A stretch of DNA of 64,000 nucleotides from assembly GCF_026004055.1 (NCBI RefSeq), contig NZ_BPIJ01000001.1, positions 186,001-250,000 of the forward strand, written 5' to 3'. The DNA comes from Meiothermus sp. (lineage in GTDB: Bacteria; Deinococcota; Deinococci; Deinococcales; Thermaceae). This document shows positions 150 to 7,286 of this stretch, in pieces; position 1 is the stretch's first letter, and the number at the start of each line of letters is the position of its first letter. The notes below the pieces were generated by a model. The model worked only from the letters and a program-made list of their open reading frames with translations, did no database searches and was not told where the DNA came from. Both the position numbers and the translations under genes were made by a program.

Positions 150-1058
150 ATGGAACCTACATTTTCCTCTACCAGAGAAGTGCGCAGATTTTCTTGGGGG
201 CTCGCGCTGTCGTGGTTGCTGCTGGTGGTAATGATCTTTGTTACCCTGTTTCCATTGTGGGTAGTACTCAAGACGGCCATTACCCCCGCCAAGGATCTTT
301 TTGCTGAGTCCACCAGGCTTTTCCCCAGCTCGCCGACCCTGATTAATTTTGAGCGGGTACTGGGTTTCTTAAGCCTCGAGCAAAACCAGGCAGCAGGAGG
401 CTCCGGAGCGGTAATCAACTTCGCACACGCACTGCGCAACTCCCTGCTCTTTACCGCCTGTGTGGTGATCTTCCAGACCTTTTTTAGCGCCCTGGCGGCT
501 TATGCCTTTGCCCGCTTGAAATTTCCTGGTCGAGACCTGATTTTCTTTCTGTTTTTATCGGCCACCATGATTCCGGGCGTGGTGCTGTTCATACCCAATT
601 TCATCCTTATGCGCGATCTGGGCTGGCTCAACACCTTCCAGGGAATGGTAGCGCCTTATGTCCTGATGGCGCCTTTTGCGGTGTTCTTCCTGCGGCAGTT
701 TTTCCTTTCGATGCCCAAAGAACTCGAGGAGGCCGCTTACCTGGATGGGGCTTCGCCTTTTTACATCTTCTGGCGGCTGGTGCTGCCTCTTAGCAAAACC
801 CCTATCGCCACCTTAAGTATCCTGACCGCCATTGCTACCTGGAACGAGTTCTTTTGGCCCTACATTGTGGCCAGGGGAGATGAATGGCAGGTGATTACGG
901 TGGCCCTCAAGGCCTTCCAATCGCAGTCGCCCCAGGGTGGTGCGGACTGGACCGGAATTATGGCAGCAACGTCCCTGGCAATCATTCCGGTGATCATCCT
1001 GCTGGTGGTGTTGGGGCGTCAGGTGGTGGAATCGCTGCAATTCAGTGGCGTGAAATGA
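150..1058 (+). CDS. Carbohydrate ABC transporter permease (MalG-like)
   Basis: Inner-membrane permease of 302 aa for a CUT1-type sugar importer. It has an N-terminal helix (about 19-40), five further hydrophobic segments and the EAA loop that contacts the ATPase, seen as EEAAYLDGASPF near residues 193-204. The length and the tail are typical of MalG. An AAAGGTG ribosome site precedes the ATG. It sits between the other permease and the solute-binding protein, so these three genes form the importer. No ATP-binding subunit is encoded here; such systems often borrow a shared MsmK/MalK-type ATPase encoded elsewhere. The substrate is probably an oligosaccharide, judging from the GH4 enzyme downstream. 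Confidence 0.93.
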   Translation: MEPTFSSTREVRRFSWGLALSWLLLVVMIFVTLFPLWVVLKTAITPAKDLFAESTRLFPSSPTLINFERVLGFLSLEQNQAAGGSGAVINFAHALRNSLLFTACVVIFQTFFSALAAYAFARLKFPGRDLIFFLFLSATMIPGVVLFIPNFILMRDLGWLNTFQGMVAPYVLMAPFAVFFLRQFFLSMPKELEEAAYLDGASPFYIFWRLVLPLSKTPIATLSILTAIATWNEFFWPYIVARGDEWQVITVALKAFQSQSPQGGADWTGIMAATSLAIIPVIILLVVLGRQVVESLQFSGVK

Positions 1059-1131
1059 CGTAAAGGAGGCTTGAGAAAAAGCGGAGAGAGATCGGCAAAC
1101 CCGTCCTAGGCTTCTTTTTTGGAGGATAAAC

Positions 1132-2445
1132 ATGAAACAACTGACTCAAAAAGTAGGGATGCTGGCCATTGCAGGTTTCCTGGGTACGGCACTGGCCCAG
1201 ACCGAGGTCTCTTACTGGTTGTGGGATGCCAACCAGAAGCCTGCATACGAAGCTTGTGCGGCCGAGTTCAGCAAGCAAAATCCCAACATCCGTGTAAAGA
1301 TTGAGCAAAAAGGCTGGGATGACTACTGGACCAGCATTACCACGGGCTTCGTTGCGGGTACCGCTCCCGATGTCTTTACCAGCCATCTGGCCAAGTACCC
1401 CGAGTTTGCGCTCAACAACCAGATTGTTGACCTAACCCCTTACATCAAGCGGGATAATCTGGACACCAAAATCTACTATCCCGGCCTCTACGATTTATGG
1501 GGAAAAGACGGCAAGCAGTATGGTTTGCCTAAGGATTGGGACACCGTTGCCATTGTCTACAACAAGAAAATGTTGAGAGAGGCGGGGGTCACAGAAGCGC
1601 AGATCAAGAACTGGACTTGGAATCCCAAGGACGGCGGCACCTTCGGTCAGATTCTGGCCCGTCTAACCAAAGATAAGAACGGCAACAATGCCTTGAGCCC
1701 TCGCTTCGACCCGAAAAACGTGGTGCAGTACGGCTGGGTTAGCCCCAATGGGGGAGGGTACGGTCAGACCGAGTGGAGCTGGCTGGCTGTTTCTAACGGT
1801 TTCAAGTTCAACGATGGTCCGTGGTCGCGCAAGTACTACTACGATAGCCCCAAGCTGGCCGAGACCATCCAGTGGCTAGCCGACCTCGGGCTGAAGCGAG
1901 GTATTGCCGTGCCCTTCAAGGATCTGCCCACCAGCGGTGGTGTTGAGCCGCTTTTTACCTCAGGGAAAGCAGCCATGATGCCCCAGGGCTCTTGGATGAT
2001 TACCTACTTCCGTGACAACACCAAGTTTGAATACGGTTGGGCTCCTTTGCCCATTGGGCCGCTGGGACGCAAGAGCATGTTCAACGGTCTGGCAGACAAC
2101 ATCTGGGTGGGTAGTAAAAAGAAAGAAGAGGCCTGGCGGTGGGTCAGGTTCATGGGTTCTCCGACCTGCCAGAACATCGTGGGGAGCTTCGGGGTGGTCT
2201 TCCCGGCCATCAAGTCTGGGGTGGATGCTGCCCTGAAGGCGCATGCTTCCAAAGGCATTGACGTGAGTGCTTTTACGACCGTGGCCAACACCCCCGGAGC
2301 CACTTTCTTGTTCCCCATCGCCGACAAGGCTTCCGAGGTCAGTAGCATCATGCAAGCTGCGATGGACTCCATCTTCCTGGGCAAGGCCACCGCAGTGGAT
2401 GCCCTGCGCGAAGCCAATGCCAAGGTGAATGCCCTGTTTCGCTAG
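1132..2445 (+). CDS. Extracellular sugar-binding protein of the ABC importer
   Basis: Solute-binding protein of family 1, 437 aa, that captures a sugar outside the cytoplasmic membrane and delivers it to the permeases just upstream. The first 22 residues form a signal peptide ending at LAQ. The mature part starts with a typical VSYWLWDANQKPAYE strand-helix and continues with the aromatic-rich pattern of sugar binders (DWDTVAIVYNKKM, GSWMITYF). A GGAGG site lies 9 nt before the ATG. A stable hairpin directly after the stop may protect its mRNA, so the binder can be made in excess over the membrane subunits. The sugar cannot be named from sequence alone. Confidence 0.93.
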   Translation: MKQLTQKVGMLAIAGFLGTALAQTEVSYWLWDANQKPAYEACAAEFSKQNPNIRVKIEQKGWDDYWTSITTGFVAGTAPDVFTSHLAKYPEFALNNQIVDLTPYIKRDNLDTKIYYPGLYDLWGKDGKQYGLPKDWDTVAIVYNKKMLREAGVTEAQIKNWTWNPKDGGTFGQILARLTKDKNGNNALSPRFDPKNVVQYGWVSPNGGGYGQTEWSWLAVSNGFKFNDGPWSRKYYYDSPKLAETIQWLADLGLKRGIAVPFKDLPTSGGVEPLFTSGKAAMMPQGSWMITYFRDNTKFEYGWAPLPIGPLGRKSMFNGLADNIWVGSKKKEEAWRWVRFMGSPTCQNIVGSFGVVFPAIKSGVDAALKAHASKGIDVSAFTTVANTPGATFLFPIADKASEVSSIMQAAMDSIFLGKATAVDALREANAKVNALFR

Positions 2446-2455
2446 ACTGCCTGGG

Positions 2456-2479
2456 GGGTGGGGAGGACTCTTCCCACCC
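2456..2479 (+). other. Intercistronic hairpin after the sugar-binding protein gene
   Basis: Arms GGGTGGGGAG (2456-2465) and CTTCCCACCC (2470-2479) pair over ten positions with one G-U pair and a 4-nt loop. No T-run follows, so it is not a simple terminator. Hairpins at this position are commonly found 3' of ABC binding-protein genes, where they stabilise the upstream message and lower downstream expression; that role is inferred here. Confidence 0.6.
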
Positions 2480-2505
2480 TAGCCCTATCGGTATGAGGTG
2501 TGGCA

Positions 2506-4137
2506 ATGCGCATGGCTCTATCCAAGGTAACCCTAGCCCTCCTTCTAGGGTCTTTGGGTGCCGGTGCAGCCCCACCTCATGCTCCTTCCGATGTCACGGT
2601 AGCGGTAGCGGTGGATTTTGTGAAACTAGAACAGGGTTTGTGTGGTACTGCTTTTGAAGCCCACGATTTGCCACACACGGCCCAGGGCCGCTGGCCGGTG
2701 CGGGGGTTCGACGGCAATGGCGCAGGGGTGGGCCTAGGCGACCTCAATAACGATGGCCTCATCGAGATCGTGCTGGCTTCCCAGGTCGGCGAGGCTAGTG
2801 TTTTATGGAACCGGGGCCAACTCCGCTTTGAGCGGGAGGCCTTACCGACAGAAGGTACCAAGGCGGTGGCCTTGGTAGATGTGGATGCGGATGGCTGGTT
2901 GGACATCACCTTTACCCACAACAACTTTTATCCCAGTTACTGGCGCAATCAAAATGGGCGGTTTGTACAGCAACGCTTGGAAGGGGTGCGCCAGCCGGCT
3001 TTCGTGTTTTTGTGGGATGACCTATTGGGGCGGGGTCGGTTGGATTTGGTCACCGCCTCCTATGATCCGAGCCTCGAGGCTGAGAACCGCGACGGCTTCT
3101 TGTTTGGCCGGGGAGCCGGGGTGTTTTTATATGAAGCAGGCCCGCAGGGTTACACAGAACAACGTCTATCCCCCAAGGCTTTTGCCCTGGGGCTGGTGGC
3201 CTTCGATGCAGACCTGGACGGGCAGCGCGACTTGATTGTGGGCAACGACTTCGACCTGCCCGATATGGCCTGGCGCTGGGATAATGGAACCTGGCAGCAG
3301 TTTCAACCCTTCCGGCAGTTTAGCAAGCACCCCATGGGTTTTGCCCTGGGCGATATCCAAAACGATGGTGTACCTGAGCTTTTTTCAACCGACATGAAAC
3401 CGGATTTCCGCGACCTCAAGACCCTGGCTACCTGGATGCCCTTGCTGGAGCGGGGCTACAAGAAATTTCGTACGCATGGCCCCCAGAAAACCGAGAACAT
3501 GTTGCAGGTTCGGCAGGCCCAAGGCTTTCGCAATATGGCCTATGCGCTTGGTCTGGATGCTACCGGCTGGAGTTGGTCGGCCAAGTTTGGTGACCTGGAC
3601 AACGACGGCTGGCAAGACCTCTATGTGGTGAACGGCATGATGGATATCGAGCAGTTTCCTTATTTGCCGGGTGGCGAGCTGGTCGAAGAAAACCGGGTCT
3701 TTCGCAACCACAGAAGCCGGTTTGAGCACCGGCCGGACTGGAAACTGGGTTCGAAGCGCAGCGCTCGAGGCATGAGCATGGCAGACCTGGACAATGATGG
3801 CGACCTGGACATTGTGGTGGGCAACCTGAGCAGCCCGGCCCAGCTTTTTGAAAACCGGCTTTGTGGCTACCCCGCCCTGGAAGTGGAGCTTCGCTGGCCC
3901 AAAAGCCAGAACACCCGCGCCATAGGGGCCGAGGTGATTTTGCACAGCAATGGCTGGCGGCAGTGGCGGCAGGTTACGGCTACCAGCGGCTATCTCTCGG
4001 GTGACGCACCCCGGCTGCATTTTGCCCTGCCCCAGGAGGAGGGGTGGCTCGAGGTGGTCTGGCCCGATGGAAAACGTTCCTGGCAGGCAGCAAAGGCCGG
4101 TCAACTGCTGATCCTGACCCGCGGGGAGACCCCATGA
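2506..4137 (+). CDS. Secreted FG-GAP/VCBS beta-propeller protein with UnbV/ASPIC C-terminal domain
   Basis: Predicted exported protein of 543 aa. A signal peptide (about 1-23, ending GAGAA) is followed by about seven FG-GAP/VCBS blades carrying the calcium-loop pattern D-x-D-x-D/N-G (GDLNNDG, VDVDADG, FDADLDG, GDIQNDG, GDLDNDG, ADLDNDG). The last 80 residues match the ASPIC/UnbV pattern: N-x-R-A-I-G-A, then TSGYLSG and VVWPDGK. Such propellers are usually cell-surface or extracytoplasmic binding modules; no enzyme activity is known for the domain. ATG 2506 is preferred because GAGGTG (2495-2500) precedes it; GTG 2500 is possible. The stop overlaps the next start (ATGA), so it is translationally coupled to the membrane protein. 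Its presence in a sugar operon is unusual. Confidence 0.85.
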   Translation: MRMALSKVTLALLLGSLGAGAAPPHAPSDVTVAVAVDFVKLEQGLCGTAFEAHDLPHTAQGRWPVRGFDGNGAGVGLGDLNNDGLIEIVLASQVGEASVLWNRGQLRFEREALPTEGTKAVALVDVDADGWLDITFTHNNFYPSYWRNQNGRFVQQRLEGVRQPAFVFLWDDLLGRGRLDLVTASYDPSLEAENRDGFLFGRGAGVFLYEAGPQGYTEQRLSPKAFALGLVAFDADLDGQRDLIVGNDFDLPDMAWRWDNGTWQQFQPFRQFSKHPMGFALGDIQNDGVPELFSTDMKPDFRDLKTLATWMPLLERGYKKFRTHGPQKTENMLQVRQAQGFRNMAYALGLDATGWSWSAKFGDLDNDGWQDLYVVNGMMDIEQFPYLPGGELVEENRVFRNHRSRFEHRPDWKLGSKRSARGMSMADLDNDGDLDIVVGNLSSPAQLFENRLCGYPALEVELRWPKSQNTRAIGAEVILHSNGWRQWRQVTATSGYLSGDAPRLHFALPQEEGWLEVVWPDGKRSWQAAKAGQLLILTRGETP

Positions 4138-4868
4138 GTCCTATCCCCCCTAAAAGCCTTGCTGGACTGCTTAGCTTCCGGATCTACCGCGAGCTATTGT
4201 TGCTATTGGGGGCTTTGGGGCTGGTGCTGGCCGGGGTAGGGGTATATGGAGCCGGCCTGCCCGTCTGGGGAGGGACGCTGGTTTTTTTGGGTGTGGTGGC
4301 TGTGCCGGTAGGGCTCAAGTGGTGGGACGACTTTAGGCGCTTGGGAGCTGCAGCCTTTGTGCTAAGCGCTTTGCTGATGCTTCAGGGTTTTCACTTTTTA
4401 GAGCACACCGTACAGATGGTGCAGTATTACCTGTTCAATCGTCCTCCCATCCTGTCCCAAGGGCTCATCTCCTCGCTCAATGTTGAATGGGTGCACTTTC
4501 TTTGGAATGTTTTTGTGTTGTCTATGATGGTTTTTTTGCTGCGGCGGGGGCTGCGCGGTTTCTGGGGCTGGGCGCTTTTAGGCTGGACTACGGCACACAC
4601 CCTCGAGCACACCTACCTGCTGCTACGCTACTTGCAACTCCAGGCCGAGCTCGGTGCCCTGGGCCTCTCGGGCTTCCAAGTTGCCCAGGCTCTACCGGGC
4701 ATCCTGGGCCGCGACGGCTGGTTGGCCGAGAACAACCTGTGCACCGGTGTTCCGGGCCTTACAACGTTACCTCGAGTGGCCATCCATTTCCTTTGGAATC
4801 TGGGCGAGACCGGGCTGTTGCTTTTAGCGGCCCATACCCAGCTGGCTCGCCTTATTCAACCCCGCTAA
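4134..4868 (+). CDS. Six-helix membrane protein with duplicated His/Glu motifs, unknown function
   Basis: Unrecognised integral membrane protein of 244 aa. Six hydrophobic segments are visible (about 18-40, 42-62, 71-99, 115-137, 143-166 and 214-238). Two motif pairs recur: HFLEHT (87-92) with HFLWN (121-125), and HTLEHT (155-160) with HFLWN (218-222), the latter followed by E225 and H234. This indicates an internal duplication with eight or more His/Glu residues inside or next to the membrane, as in proteins that bind metal or haem; that function is inferred. The start at 4134 overlaps the FG-GAP stop by ATGA, implying coupled synthesis. An upstream in-frame start at 4044 would lie inside the FG-GAP gene and is rejected. 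Confidence 0.8.
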   Translation: MSPIPPKSLAGLLSFRIYRELLLLLGALGLVLAGVGVYGAGLPVWGGTLVFLGVVAVPVGLKWWDDFRRLGAAAFVLSALLMLQGFHFLEHTVQMVQYYLFNRPPILSQGLISSLNVEWVHFLWNVFVLSMMVFLLRRGLRGFWGWALLGWTTAHTLEHTYLLLRYLQLQAELGALGLSGFQVAQALPGILGRDGWLAENNLCTGVPGLTTLPRVAIHFLWNLGETGLLLLAAHTQLARLIQPR

Positions 4869-4878
4869 GGAGCCTCAT

Positions 4879-6222
4879 ATGCCGAAAATTACCTTCATAG
4901 GTGCAGGAAGCACGGTTTTTGCCAAGAACTTGATCGGCGATATCCTCTCTTTCCCTGAGCTTGCCGAGTCGGAACTGGTGCTGTATGACATTGATGCCGA
5001 AAGGCTGGCAACCTCCGAAATTGTGGCCCACAAAGTAGCCCATGCTCTGGGAGCAAAGCCCCGAATAGTGGCCACCACCGACCGAGAACGTGCTCTGGAC
5101 GGCGCCCACTATGCCATCAATATGATTCAGGTCGGGGGATATAAACCCGCCACAGTTATTGACTTCGAGATTCCCAAGAAATACGGCTTGCGCCAGACCA
5201 TTGCCGACACTTTGGGCATTGGTGGCATTATGCGGGCGGTACGAACCATTCCGGTTCTTTTGGAGATGAGCCGGGACATGGAACGACTCTGTCCCGAGGT
5301 GCTACACCTCAACTATGTCAACCCCATGGCCATGATCATGTGGGCCTTGCAGAAAGCCAGTCCCATCCGCTCTATCGGACTGTGCCATAGTGTGCAGCAC
5401 ACAGCCGGTGAAATTTGCCGTGACATTGGGGTACCGGTGGAGGAGGTCAACTACCTGGTCGCGGGCATCAACCATATGGCCTATTTCTTGAGGCTCGAGC
5501 ACCAAGGCCAAGACCTCTACCCCCGCTTGCGTGCCTTTGCCGAGAGCGGCCAGACCCCATACCGCGACCATGGCGAGGTTCAACTCCCCGACCGGGTACG
5601 CTATGAGATGTTCAAAAGGCTGGGCTACTTTGTCACCGAGAGCAGCGAGCACCACGCGGAGTACCTGCCTTACTTCATCAAGCGGGATCGCCCCGACCTG
5701 ATCGAGCGATACGGGATTCCCCTGGACGAGTATGTTCGCAGGTGCGAGGCCCAGATTGCCGGCTGGGAGACTCAGCGTCAGGAGCTTCTGGGCGAGCACG
5801 CCCCGCTCGAGGTTCGGCGCAGCGTGGAGTATGGCTCGGGCATCATCCACTCCCTCGAGACTGGCCAGCCCAGGGTGGTCTATGGGAATGTGCTGAACCA
5901 TGGCCTGATTGATAACCTGCCCCAGGGCTGCTGTGTGGAAGTGCCCTGTTTGGTGGACAAAAACGGCATTCAGCCTACCAAAATAGGGGCGCTTCCGCCT
6001 CAGCTAGCGGCCTTGATGCGAACCAATATCAACGTGCAAGAGCTCACCGTAGAGGCCATCCTAACCGGTAAACGCGAACACCTCTATCATGCCGCCATGC
6101 TGGATCCGCACACGGCAGCCGAGCTCGACCTCGAGCAAATCTGGAAGCTGGTAGATGAACTGCTGGAGGCACACGGTGAGTTTGTTCCCGCCAACCTCCG
6201 CAGTTATGCAGCAGCCTTCTAG
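4879..6222 (+). CDS. melA: Glycoside hydrolase family 4 alpha-glycosidase (MelA/AglA type)
   Basis: Cytoplasmic GH4 enzyme of 447 aa. This family cleaves glycosides by NAD+- and Mn2+-dependent oxidation and elimination, not by classical hydrolysis. The N-terminal Rossmann motif ITFIGAGST (4-12) and the metal-binding Cys-His pair in CHSV (C169, H170) are present, as is the NPM motif (148-150). A CHSV-type signature is found in members acting on unphosphorylated alpha-galactosides or alpha-glucosides, so a disaccharide brought in by the upstream importer is the likely substrate. Exact specificity is uncertain. An AAGGAG site precedes the ATG, 10 nt after the previous stop. Confidence 0.9.
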   Translation: MPKITFIGAGSTVFAKNLIGDILSFPELAESELVLYDIDAERLATSEIVAHKVAHALGAKPRIVATTDRERALDGAHYAINMIQVGGYKPATVIDFEIPKKYGLRQTIADTLGIGGIMRAVRTIPVLLEMSRDMERLCPEVLHLNYVNPMAMIMWALQKASPIRSIGLCHSVQHTAGEICRDIGVPVEEVNYLVAGINHMAYFLRLEHQGQDLYPRLRAFAESGQTPYRDHGEVQLPDRVRYEMFKRLGYFVTESSEHHAEYLPYFIKRDRPDLIERYGIPLDEYVRRCEAQIAGWETQRQELLGEHAPLEVRRSVEYGSGIIHSLETGQPRVVYGNVLNHGLIDNLPQGCCVEVPCLVDKNGIQPTKIGALPPQLAALMRTNINVQELTVEAILTGKREHLYHAAMLDPHTAAELDLEQIWKLVDELLEAHGEFVPANLRSYAAAF

Positions 6223-6224
6223 AG

Positions 6225-7286
6225 ATGCCTTCTATAATCGAAAAAGGCATGGCCGACCATCGTCCTGTTACCAGTCAACAGGTTGCCAAACGGGCCGGGG
6301 TCTCCCGCACTACCGTCTCCTTTGTCCTCAATGACGTTCCGGGGGCCAACATTAGCGAGGAGACCCGGCAGAAAGTGCTGCGGGCGGCTGCAGAGCTGGG
6401 CTACGTTCCCAACGCGGCGGCCCGCAGCCTGGTGAGTGGACGCACCCTGACAATTGGGCTGGTGGTGGCCTATGCCGAACATCTAAAAGTGGATGCCTTC
6501 ATCCCGCAGCTTTTGTTCAGCATGAGCCAGCATAGCCACCTGCATGGATACCGGGTATTGCTGGAAACAGTTGAGGATGTCTCGCGCCCCGATGCCTACA
6601 CCGACCTGGTAAGGGGCAAGCACATAGATGGGCTTATTGCGGTCAATGTTCGCTCGGATGATCGCCAGCTACCCGAACTGATTCGCCGAAATTATCCCGT
6701 GGTTTTGTTGGGTTTTCCCGGCTGGGAGGGTTACTCGGTTGTTACCGATGGGATTGGCGCGGGTCGGCGGGCTACCGAGCACCTGATCTCCTTGGGGCAT
6801 ACCCGCATTGCCCACATTACCTTTTCGCCCGAGGCGTATGTGGCCACCCGGGATCGCCACCTGGGCTACCGACAAGCCCTGGAGCAGGCCGGGATCGGCT
6901 ACCGCTCGAGCCTGGTGCGCTATGGCAACTACAGCGCAGCCAGTGGCTACCAAGCCATGAAAGAGCTGCTACGGCGCAAACCTTACCCTACGGCGCTGTT
7001 TGCCGGCAACGATACCATTGCCATGGGTGCGATGGCCGCCATCCACGAGCAGGGACTGCGTATTCCGGAAGATATTGCAGTGGTGGGTTACGACGACATC
7101 CCAACCGCGCCCTACATGAACCCGCCCCTAACCACCATTCGGGTCTCGCCGGTTGAACAAGGCCGCATTGCCGTCGAGATGCTCTCGGCCCTAATTCGCG
7201 GCAACCCGCCGCCCGAGCGCCAGGTATTGCTTGAAACACCTTTGGTGATTCGCGAGTCGTGCGGGGCAAGCAAACACAAGAAGTAG
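6225..7286 (+). CDS. LacI-family transcriptional regulator, probably of the sugar operon
   Basis: LacI/GalR-type repressor of up to 353 aa. The N-terminal helix-turn-helix is clear (VTSQQVAKRAGVSRTTVSFV), followed by the hinge region and a periplasmic-binding-protein-like effector domain ending in LETPLVIRESC. The gene starts 2 nt after the GH4 stop, so it is cotranscribed and is the obvious candidate to sense the imported sugar. ATG 6225 gives eight extra residues; ATG 6249 (MADHRPVTSQQ) gives a more typical N terminus. Neither has a strong ribosome site, so coupling to GH4 is likely. No matching operator could be assigned because the operon promoter lies outside the window. Confidence 0.93.
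   Translation: MPSIIEKGMADHRPVTSQQVAKRAGVSRTTVSFVLNDVPGANISEETRQKVLRAAAELGYVPNAAARSLVSGRTLTIGLVVAYAEHLKVDAFIPQLLFSMSQHSHLHGYRVLLETVEDVSRPDAYTDLVRGKHIDGLIAVNVRSDDRQLPELIRRNYPVVLLGFPGWEGYSVVTDGIGAGRRATEHLISLGHTRIAHITFSPEAYVATRDRHLGYRQALEQAGIGYRSSLVRYGNYSAASGYQAMKELLRRKPYPTALFAGNDTIAMGAMAAIHEQGLRIPEDIAVVGYDDIPTAPYMNPPLTTIRVSPVEQGRIAVEMLSALIRGNPPPERQVLLETPLVIRESCGASKHKK

Follow-up and report, generated by a model that had tools for sequence, protein, structure and literature searches.

Linked genes for a CRTAC1-like propeller and an unnamed six-helix membrane protein in importer-GH4 operons of Deinococcota: a possible accessory unit of alpha-galactoside uptake

Propellers of the ASPIC/UnbV family, of which mouse CRTAC1 (9etn) is a member, combine FG-GAP repeats (PF13517) with a UnbV_ASPIC domain (PF07593). 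Vertebrate CRTAC1 is an extracellular matrix protein. Many bacteria encode UnbV/CRTAC1 propellers, which also occur in vertebrates, but few of their ligands are known. CRTAC1 itself is not known as a lectin, and not every member of the wider VCBS group binds sugar. At the level of this superfamily, the propeller described here is related to other VCBS-type propellers, including the sugar-binding PVL lectins and aldos-2-ulose dehydratase (PMC8023676). In enediyne clusters, as at the present locus, the direct neighbour of the UnbV propeller gene encodes a membrane protein with several helices, there UnbU. Both the propeller family and the alpha-galactoside operon composed of a CUT1 ABC importer, a GH4 enzyme and a LacI regulator are already known. 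The literature searched, which misses most subscription journals, yielded nothing on the pairing of the two genes, on the family of the membrane protein or on a phylum-wide link between UnbV propellers and sugar importers.

The window, the whole stretch of DNA that was analysed, comprises 64,000 nucleotides of a 3.18-Mb Meiothermus genome of the phylum Deinococcota. The nearest relative in the comparison is Meiothermus sp. SKYG110, with 96% identity in the membrane protein and 98% in GH4. A single plus-strand operon extends from 150 to 7286, its first permease lying just upstream of the window start, and contains the following genes:

150..1058, + strand: ABC sugar permease, the second of two of CUT1 type (BPD_transp_1, 9.6e-20; operon order in L024)
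1132..2445, + strand: ABC solute-binding protein, SBP (SBP_bac_1, 1.2e-30)
2506..4137, + strand: secreted FG-GAP/UnbV (CRTAC1-like) seven-bladed propeller with a C-terminal ASPIC/UnbV domain (Pfam; structural match to CRTAC1 9etn_A)
4134..4868, + strand: membrane protein with six helices and invariant His/Glu motifs, family unnamed (nine-homologue alignment; AlphaFold model)
4879..6222, + strand: GH4 glycosidase of alpha-galactosidase type (Glyco_hydro_4 and 4C; NCBIfam PRK15076)
6225..7286, + strand: LacI-family regulator, last gene of the operon (LacI and Peripla_BP_3)

The operon differs from the ordinary CUT1/GH4/LacI kind by the extra pair of genes between SBP and GH4; the rest of it is of that kind. 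The propeller ORF begins at an ATG at 2506, with an in-frame GTG at 2500, and ends with a stop at 4137; it overlaps by ATGA the membrane-protein ORF, which begins at an ATG at 4134 and has its stop at 4868. Coordinates, gene order and overlap had been given correctly in a preliminary description of this DNA, as had the position of the pair between a sugar importer (permeases and SBP upstream) and a GH4 enzyme (followed by LacI). The genes of the operon are closely spaced, and nothing inside it could convincingly be taken for a terminator or promoter. A hairpin at about 2455-2479, behind the SBP gene, was rejected, as it was not clearly stronger than shuffled sequences (z -1.5).

The GH4 protein scored 684 bits against the NCBIfam alpha-galactosidase model PRK15076 (cut-off 486). 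GalT and GalK genes were located downstream in two related loci (L020 and L021) and also adjoin other GH4 copies; their recurrence beside several related operons agrees with the predicted alpha-galactosidase assignment. As the GH4 enzyme is of alpha-galactosidase type, alpha-galactoside is a more exact term than the alpha-glycoside of the earlier description. Our best explanation, which taken as a whole we place a little short of an even chance, is that the locus is a melibiose- or raffinose-type alpha-galactoside import and hydrolysis operon carrying an optional two-gene envelope accessory unit.

The distribution of the pair was determined across genomes. A protein search of 111 Deinococcota genomes gave hits to the membrane protein in 10, nine of them with an intact copy. 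A profile search of about 390 genomes, about 280 of which lie outside the phylum, found no full-length membrane protein outside the importer-GH4 operons, and none was found on plasmids; a weak match in one genome (G119) was judged by eye to be an unrelated membrane protein. The pair was present in nine operons from three families, two of them cut by contig ends, with the order permease-permease-SBP-[propeller-membrane protein]-GH4-LacI. In all nine intact cases the membrane-protein gene comes immediately after that of the propeller, with SBP before the two and GH4 behind them, and in most homologues the stop of the first gene and the start of the second still overlap or nearly do so. The gene order recurs in other families of the phylum at 40-95% identity of the FG-GAP protein, which excludes chance.

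Exactly these two genes are missing, with SBP joined directly to GH4, from a minimum of four complete operons (L145, L147, L149 and L153), and among the Deinococcota operons compared there was no importer-GH4 operon with one gene of the pair alone. The existence of operons without the pair indicates that it is optional and is not needed for import and hydrolysis in general. The trees of the membrane protein, the propeller and GH4 have 3-4 of 5 splits in common, and presence or absence of the pair changes at least four times on the GH4 tree when complete operons only are considered. Tree agreement, together with joint presence and absence, therefore indicates joint inheritance of pair and operon, the two genes being lost or gained as a unit. 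Thus, the earlier proposal that the two genes form a unit tied to a sugar operon was upheld. In the tenth genome (L022:7780-8778), both genes are reduced to a single ORF, in which the N-terminal half of the propeller runs in frame into the final 50 residues of the membrane protein; this is either what a natural deletion left behind or an artefact of assembly.

Orthologous propellers that lack the membrane protein and lie outside GH4 operons were found in three loci (L069, L070 and L071), and these count against a role of the pair in uptake. The refuting outcome named beforehand, with the pair found mostly apart or in unrelated contexts, was not seen for the membrane protein and for the most part not for the propeller. 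The solo propellers of two genomes adjoin the same PIG-L-type deacetylase gene (L070:1078-1887 and L071:9852-10661). The use of the membrane protein as a mere anchor for the propeller was also considered; this idea was weakened by the finding that solo propellers, inspected by eye, are likewise without a lipobox.

Comparison of the propeller with Pfam yielded FG-GAP_3 (8e-34, six stretches, 116 bits against a cut-off of 26.9) and UnbV_ASPIC (1e-13, 51 bits against 23.4). FG-GAP repeats and a C-terminal UnbV_ASPIC domain, the combination that marks the ASPIC/UnbV (CRTAC1) family, are therefore both present above the curated cut-offs. A Sec-type signal sequence without a lipobox was recognized by eye at the N terminus, and six DxDxDG-like loops were present, in agreement with the prior description of a secreted FG-GAP/UnbV propeller with calcium loops. 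The propeller model (pLDDT 81) matched mouse CRTAC1 (9etn_A) over its full length (Z 36.2, 2.7 A, 427 residues; profile 2.8e-31), and the next structural matches were ADAM22 and then aldos-2-ulose dehydratase (Z 29). The window propeller thus has the domain order and full-length fold of CRTAC1, from which it differs in its sequence (about 20% identity) and in being a bacterial, periplasmic protein encoded in a sugar operon.

The genomic context of UnbV propellers was then quantified across the phylum, which contains 41 UnbV_ASPIC matches in 28 genomes; 40 readable loci were counted. A CUT1 or CUT2 sugar importer was present within 6 kb of 28 of the 40 UnbV loci, as compared with 3 of 40 random stretches of similar length (Fisher 4e-9, a value that is overstated because many of the 40 loci are orthologous). 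The propellers form three deep clades, and the importer link holds in all three, with alpha-galactoside, xylose and arabinose operons. Clade I comprises the GH4 operons and the three solo copies. Clade II genes adjoin XylF-XylH-XylG, in many cases together with a haloperoxidase/PAP2-like gene, and clade III genes lie in arabinose operons (arabinofuranosidase, AraA) and other CUT1 operons. In clade III the propeller is also found fused to a GH43 glycosidase (L134:5983-8505, by Pfam; L140:6373-8895, by close homology to L134) and, in an arabinose-type operon, to a PAP2/haloperoxidase-like domain (L131:5794-8634). The sugar-operon context of UnbV propellers in this phylum is therefore not accidental, as they lie beside sugar importers as a rule, and the view that this setting is odd for such a gene was not supported. 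An importer link repeated within one phylum, together with glycosidase fusions, offers a concrete ligand class to test in culturable thermophiles.

The genome containing the window encodes a second UnbV propeller, of clade II (L023:7284-8861; C1 near 273 kb), about 83 kb away and outside the window. It lies directly before XylF-XylH-XylG and is divergent from a vanadium-haloperoxidase/PAP2-like gene. Such sets of propeller, Xyl and haloperoxidase genes recur in other genomes of the genus.

These distributions bear on whether the two genes are passengers with no part in sugar use. The optional nature of the pair, its state changes among complete operons on the GH4 tree and the solo propellers elsewhere would all fit passenger genes; however, position and order are the same across three families, and independent UnbV clades also associate with sugar importers, and we consider passenger status very unlikely.

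The membrane protein was examined by modelling and alignment. The AlphaFold model (mean pLDDT 83) contains six helices (residues 19-39, 44-70, 72-100, 118-137, 143-175 and 214-240), as had been predicted from the sequence. The paired His/Glu motifs that had been pointed out are real, and residues H87, E90, H91, E118, H121, H155, E158, H159, H218 and E225 are invariant in an alignment of nine homologues. Conserved motifs are HxxEHxxQ, ExxHxxW, HxxEH, LPGxLGRDG (in a loop) and HFxWNxGE. No Pfam family scored over its cut-off for the window protein or its nine homologues, no NCBIfam model did so for the window protein or the four-helix set described below, and no PDB relative was identified, the fold search yielding nothing significant. 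Matches to Ldh_2 and DUF6008 were weak, fell below cut-off and were rejected. Loop charges suggest that both termini are inside and that two long conserved loops are outside, a pattern that would place the His/Glu set in the outer half of the membrane. An internal duplication into two HxxEH...HxxW/YN halves, seen by eye, is modestly supported, as shuffling gave 8/1000 for two sequences and was weaker for the rest.

From the observed linkage of the two genes to each other and to the operon, and from their predicted folds and families, we tentatively favor, at slightly below even probability, the reading that the pair is an optional accessory unit, located in the periplasm or envelope, that serves the uptake of alpha-galactosides. 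The calcium propeller of CRTAC1 type, secreted into the periplasm, would most likely bind or present oligosaccharide next to the ABC binding protein, and the cotranslated six-helix inner-membrane protein would be its physical partner. The conserved His/Glu residues and conserved loops would face the periplasmic side, where they probably hold a metal ion or haem. Evidence counted in favor of this uptake role comprises the nine operons, the joint absence, the joint reduction in L022, the overlap of the two ORFs, the shared splits, GalT and GalK, the importer link at 28 of 40 loci, the GH43 fusions, the clade III members in arabinose operons, the outside-facing loops and the existence of sugar-binding lectins among VCBS propellers (PMC8023676). 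Counted against it are the operons without the pair, the solo propellers, and the fact that sugar binding does not extend to all VCBS propellers and is not known for CRTAC1 as a lectin.

The same His/Glu-rich helices resemble metal-transport sites. GH4 enzymes require NAD together with a divalent metal, for example Mn, and the pair could instead be a metal-handling unit that supplies this metal to GH4. However, at least four complete GH4 operons do without the pair, and PDB and Pfam comparisons revealed no similarity to metal transporters; we regard metal supply as no more probable than passenger status.

More distant relatives of the membrane protein were identified in a four-helix HxxEH family (hhalign probability 98%, E 2.6e-13), from which a reciprocal genome search recovered the window protein (E 3.6e-6). 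The motifs HxxEHxxQxxQ, ExxH, HxxEH and PRxxxHFx(W/Y)N are common to both, and six His and three Glu are invariant in the four-helix family. The window membrane protein is thus homologous to this family, and with it an unnamed superfamily comes into view, marked by a striking set of conserved His and Glu residues, members of which also occur in enediyne clusters.

One six-helix homologue is fused to a cyclic-nucleotide-binding (cNMP) domain (L076:5549-6892). In all five loci examined (L072, L073, L075, L097 and L098), from Deinococcota and Nonomuraea, the four-helix gene lies a few kilobases from a large BTAD/AAA/TPR regulator. Both observations would suit a membrane sensor, in which the membrane protein would relay the binding of sugar by the propeller. 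This is quite unlikely for the window pair, if marginally less so than metal supply, as the operon already has a LacI regulator and the window membrane protein has no cytoplasmic output domain.

The four-helix family also occurs on Streptomyces plasmids, and all 12 of those Streptomyces records contain an enediyne UnbV gene; in the four records examined, the four-helix gene is inside the enediyne cluster, with UnbV some 3-13 kb away. Some enediyne clusters therefore contain a cousin of the window membrane protein in addition to UnbV and UnbU. UnbU itself is RnfD-like, and a UnbU-like identity of the window membrane protein was rejected because it is not similar to UnbU (BLASTP against C-1027 UnbU, best E 1.3). 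Unlike enediyne clusters, the window operon has no PKS, and the enediyne UnbV is a very distant branch.

Taken with these clusters, the evidence could also be read as a periplasmic oxidoreductase or sugar-modifying unit, in which the propeller would serve as the catalytic or substrate component while electrons move through haem or metal in the membrane protein, for example to form or handle keto-sugars. The invariant residues of the membrane protein, six His and several Glu, and a similar set in the four-helix cousins speak for such chemistry, as does the match of the propeller to aldos-2-ulose dehydratase, a keto-sugar enzyme, next after CRTAC1 and ADAM22. Other UnbV genes are also paired with a haloperoxidase/PAP2-type protein or, in enediyne clusters, with the RnfD-like protein. 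However, none of the homologues of the membrane protein has a known function, redox or other, and the redox role suggested beforehand is therefore a guess from the His/Glu motifs; its fold matches are weak, that to Dcytb, considered in view of membrane oxidoreductases such as cytochrome b561 (Z 6.7), lying among unrelated helical rows and within the noise for helical bundles (Z < 8 in VIA-align); and GH4 has no need of periplasmic oxidation. We judge this reading unlikely, although less so than a sensor.

A broader proposal, which we consider similarly doubtful, is that the pair is an undescribed periplasm-facing enzyme or sensor complex, in which the propeller would take the imported galactoside as substrate or ligand together with an intramembrane His/Glu metal protein of a new class that has cousins in enediyne clusters. 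If this were true, UnbV propellers would generally be carbohydrate-linked partners of membrane proteins.

Within the Streptomyces enediyne clusters, the four-helix HxxEH gene (L078:5953-6516, L080:5956-6513, L081:5953-6513 and L099:12953-13516) is followed by a gene for a second small conserved membrane protein.
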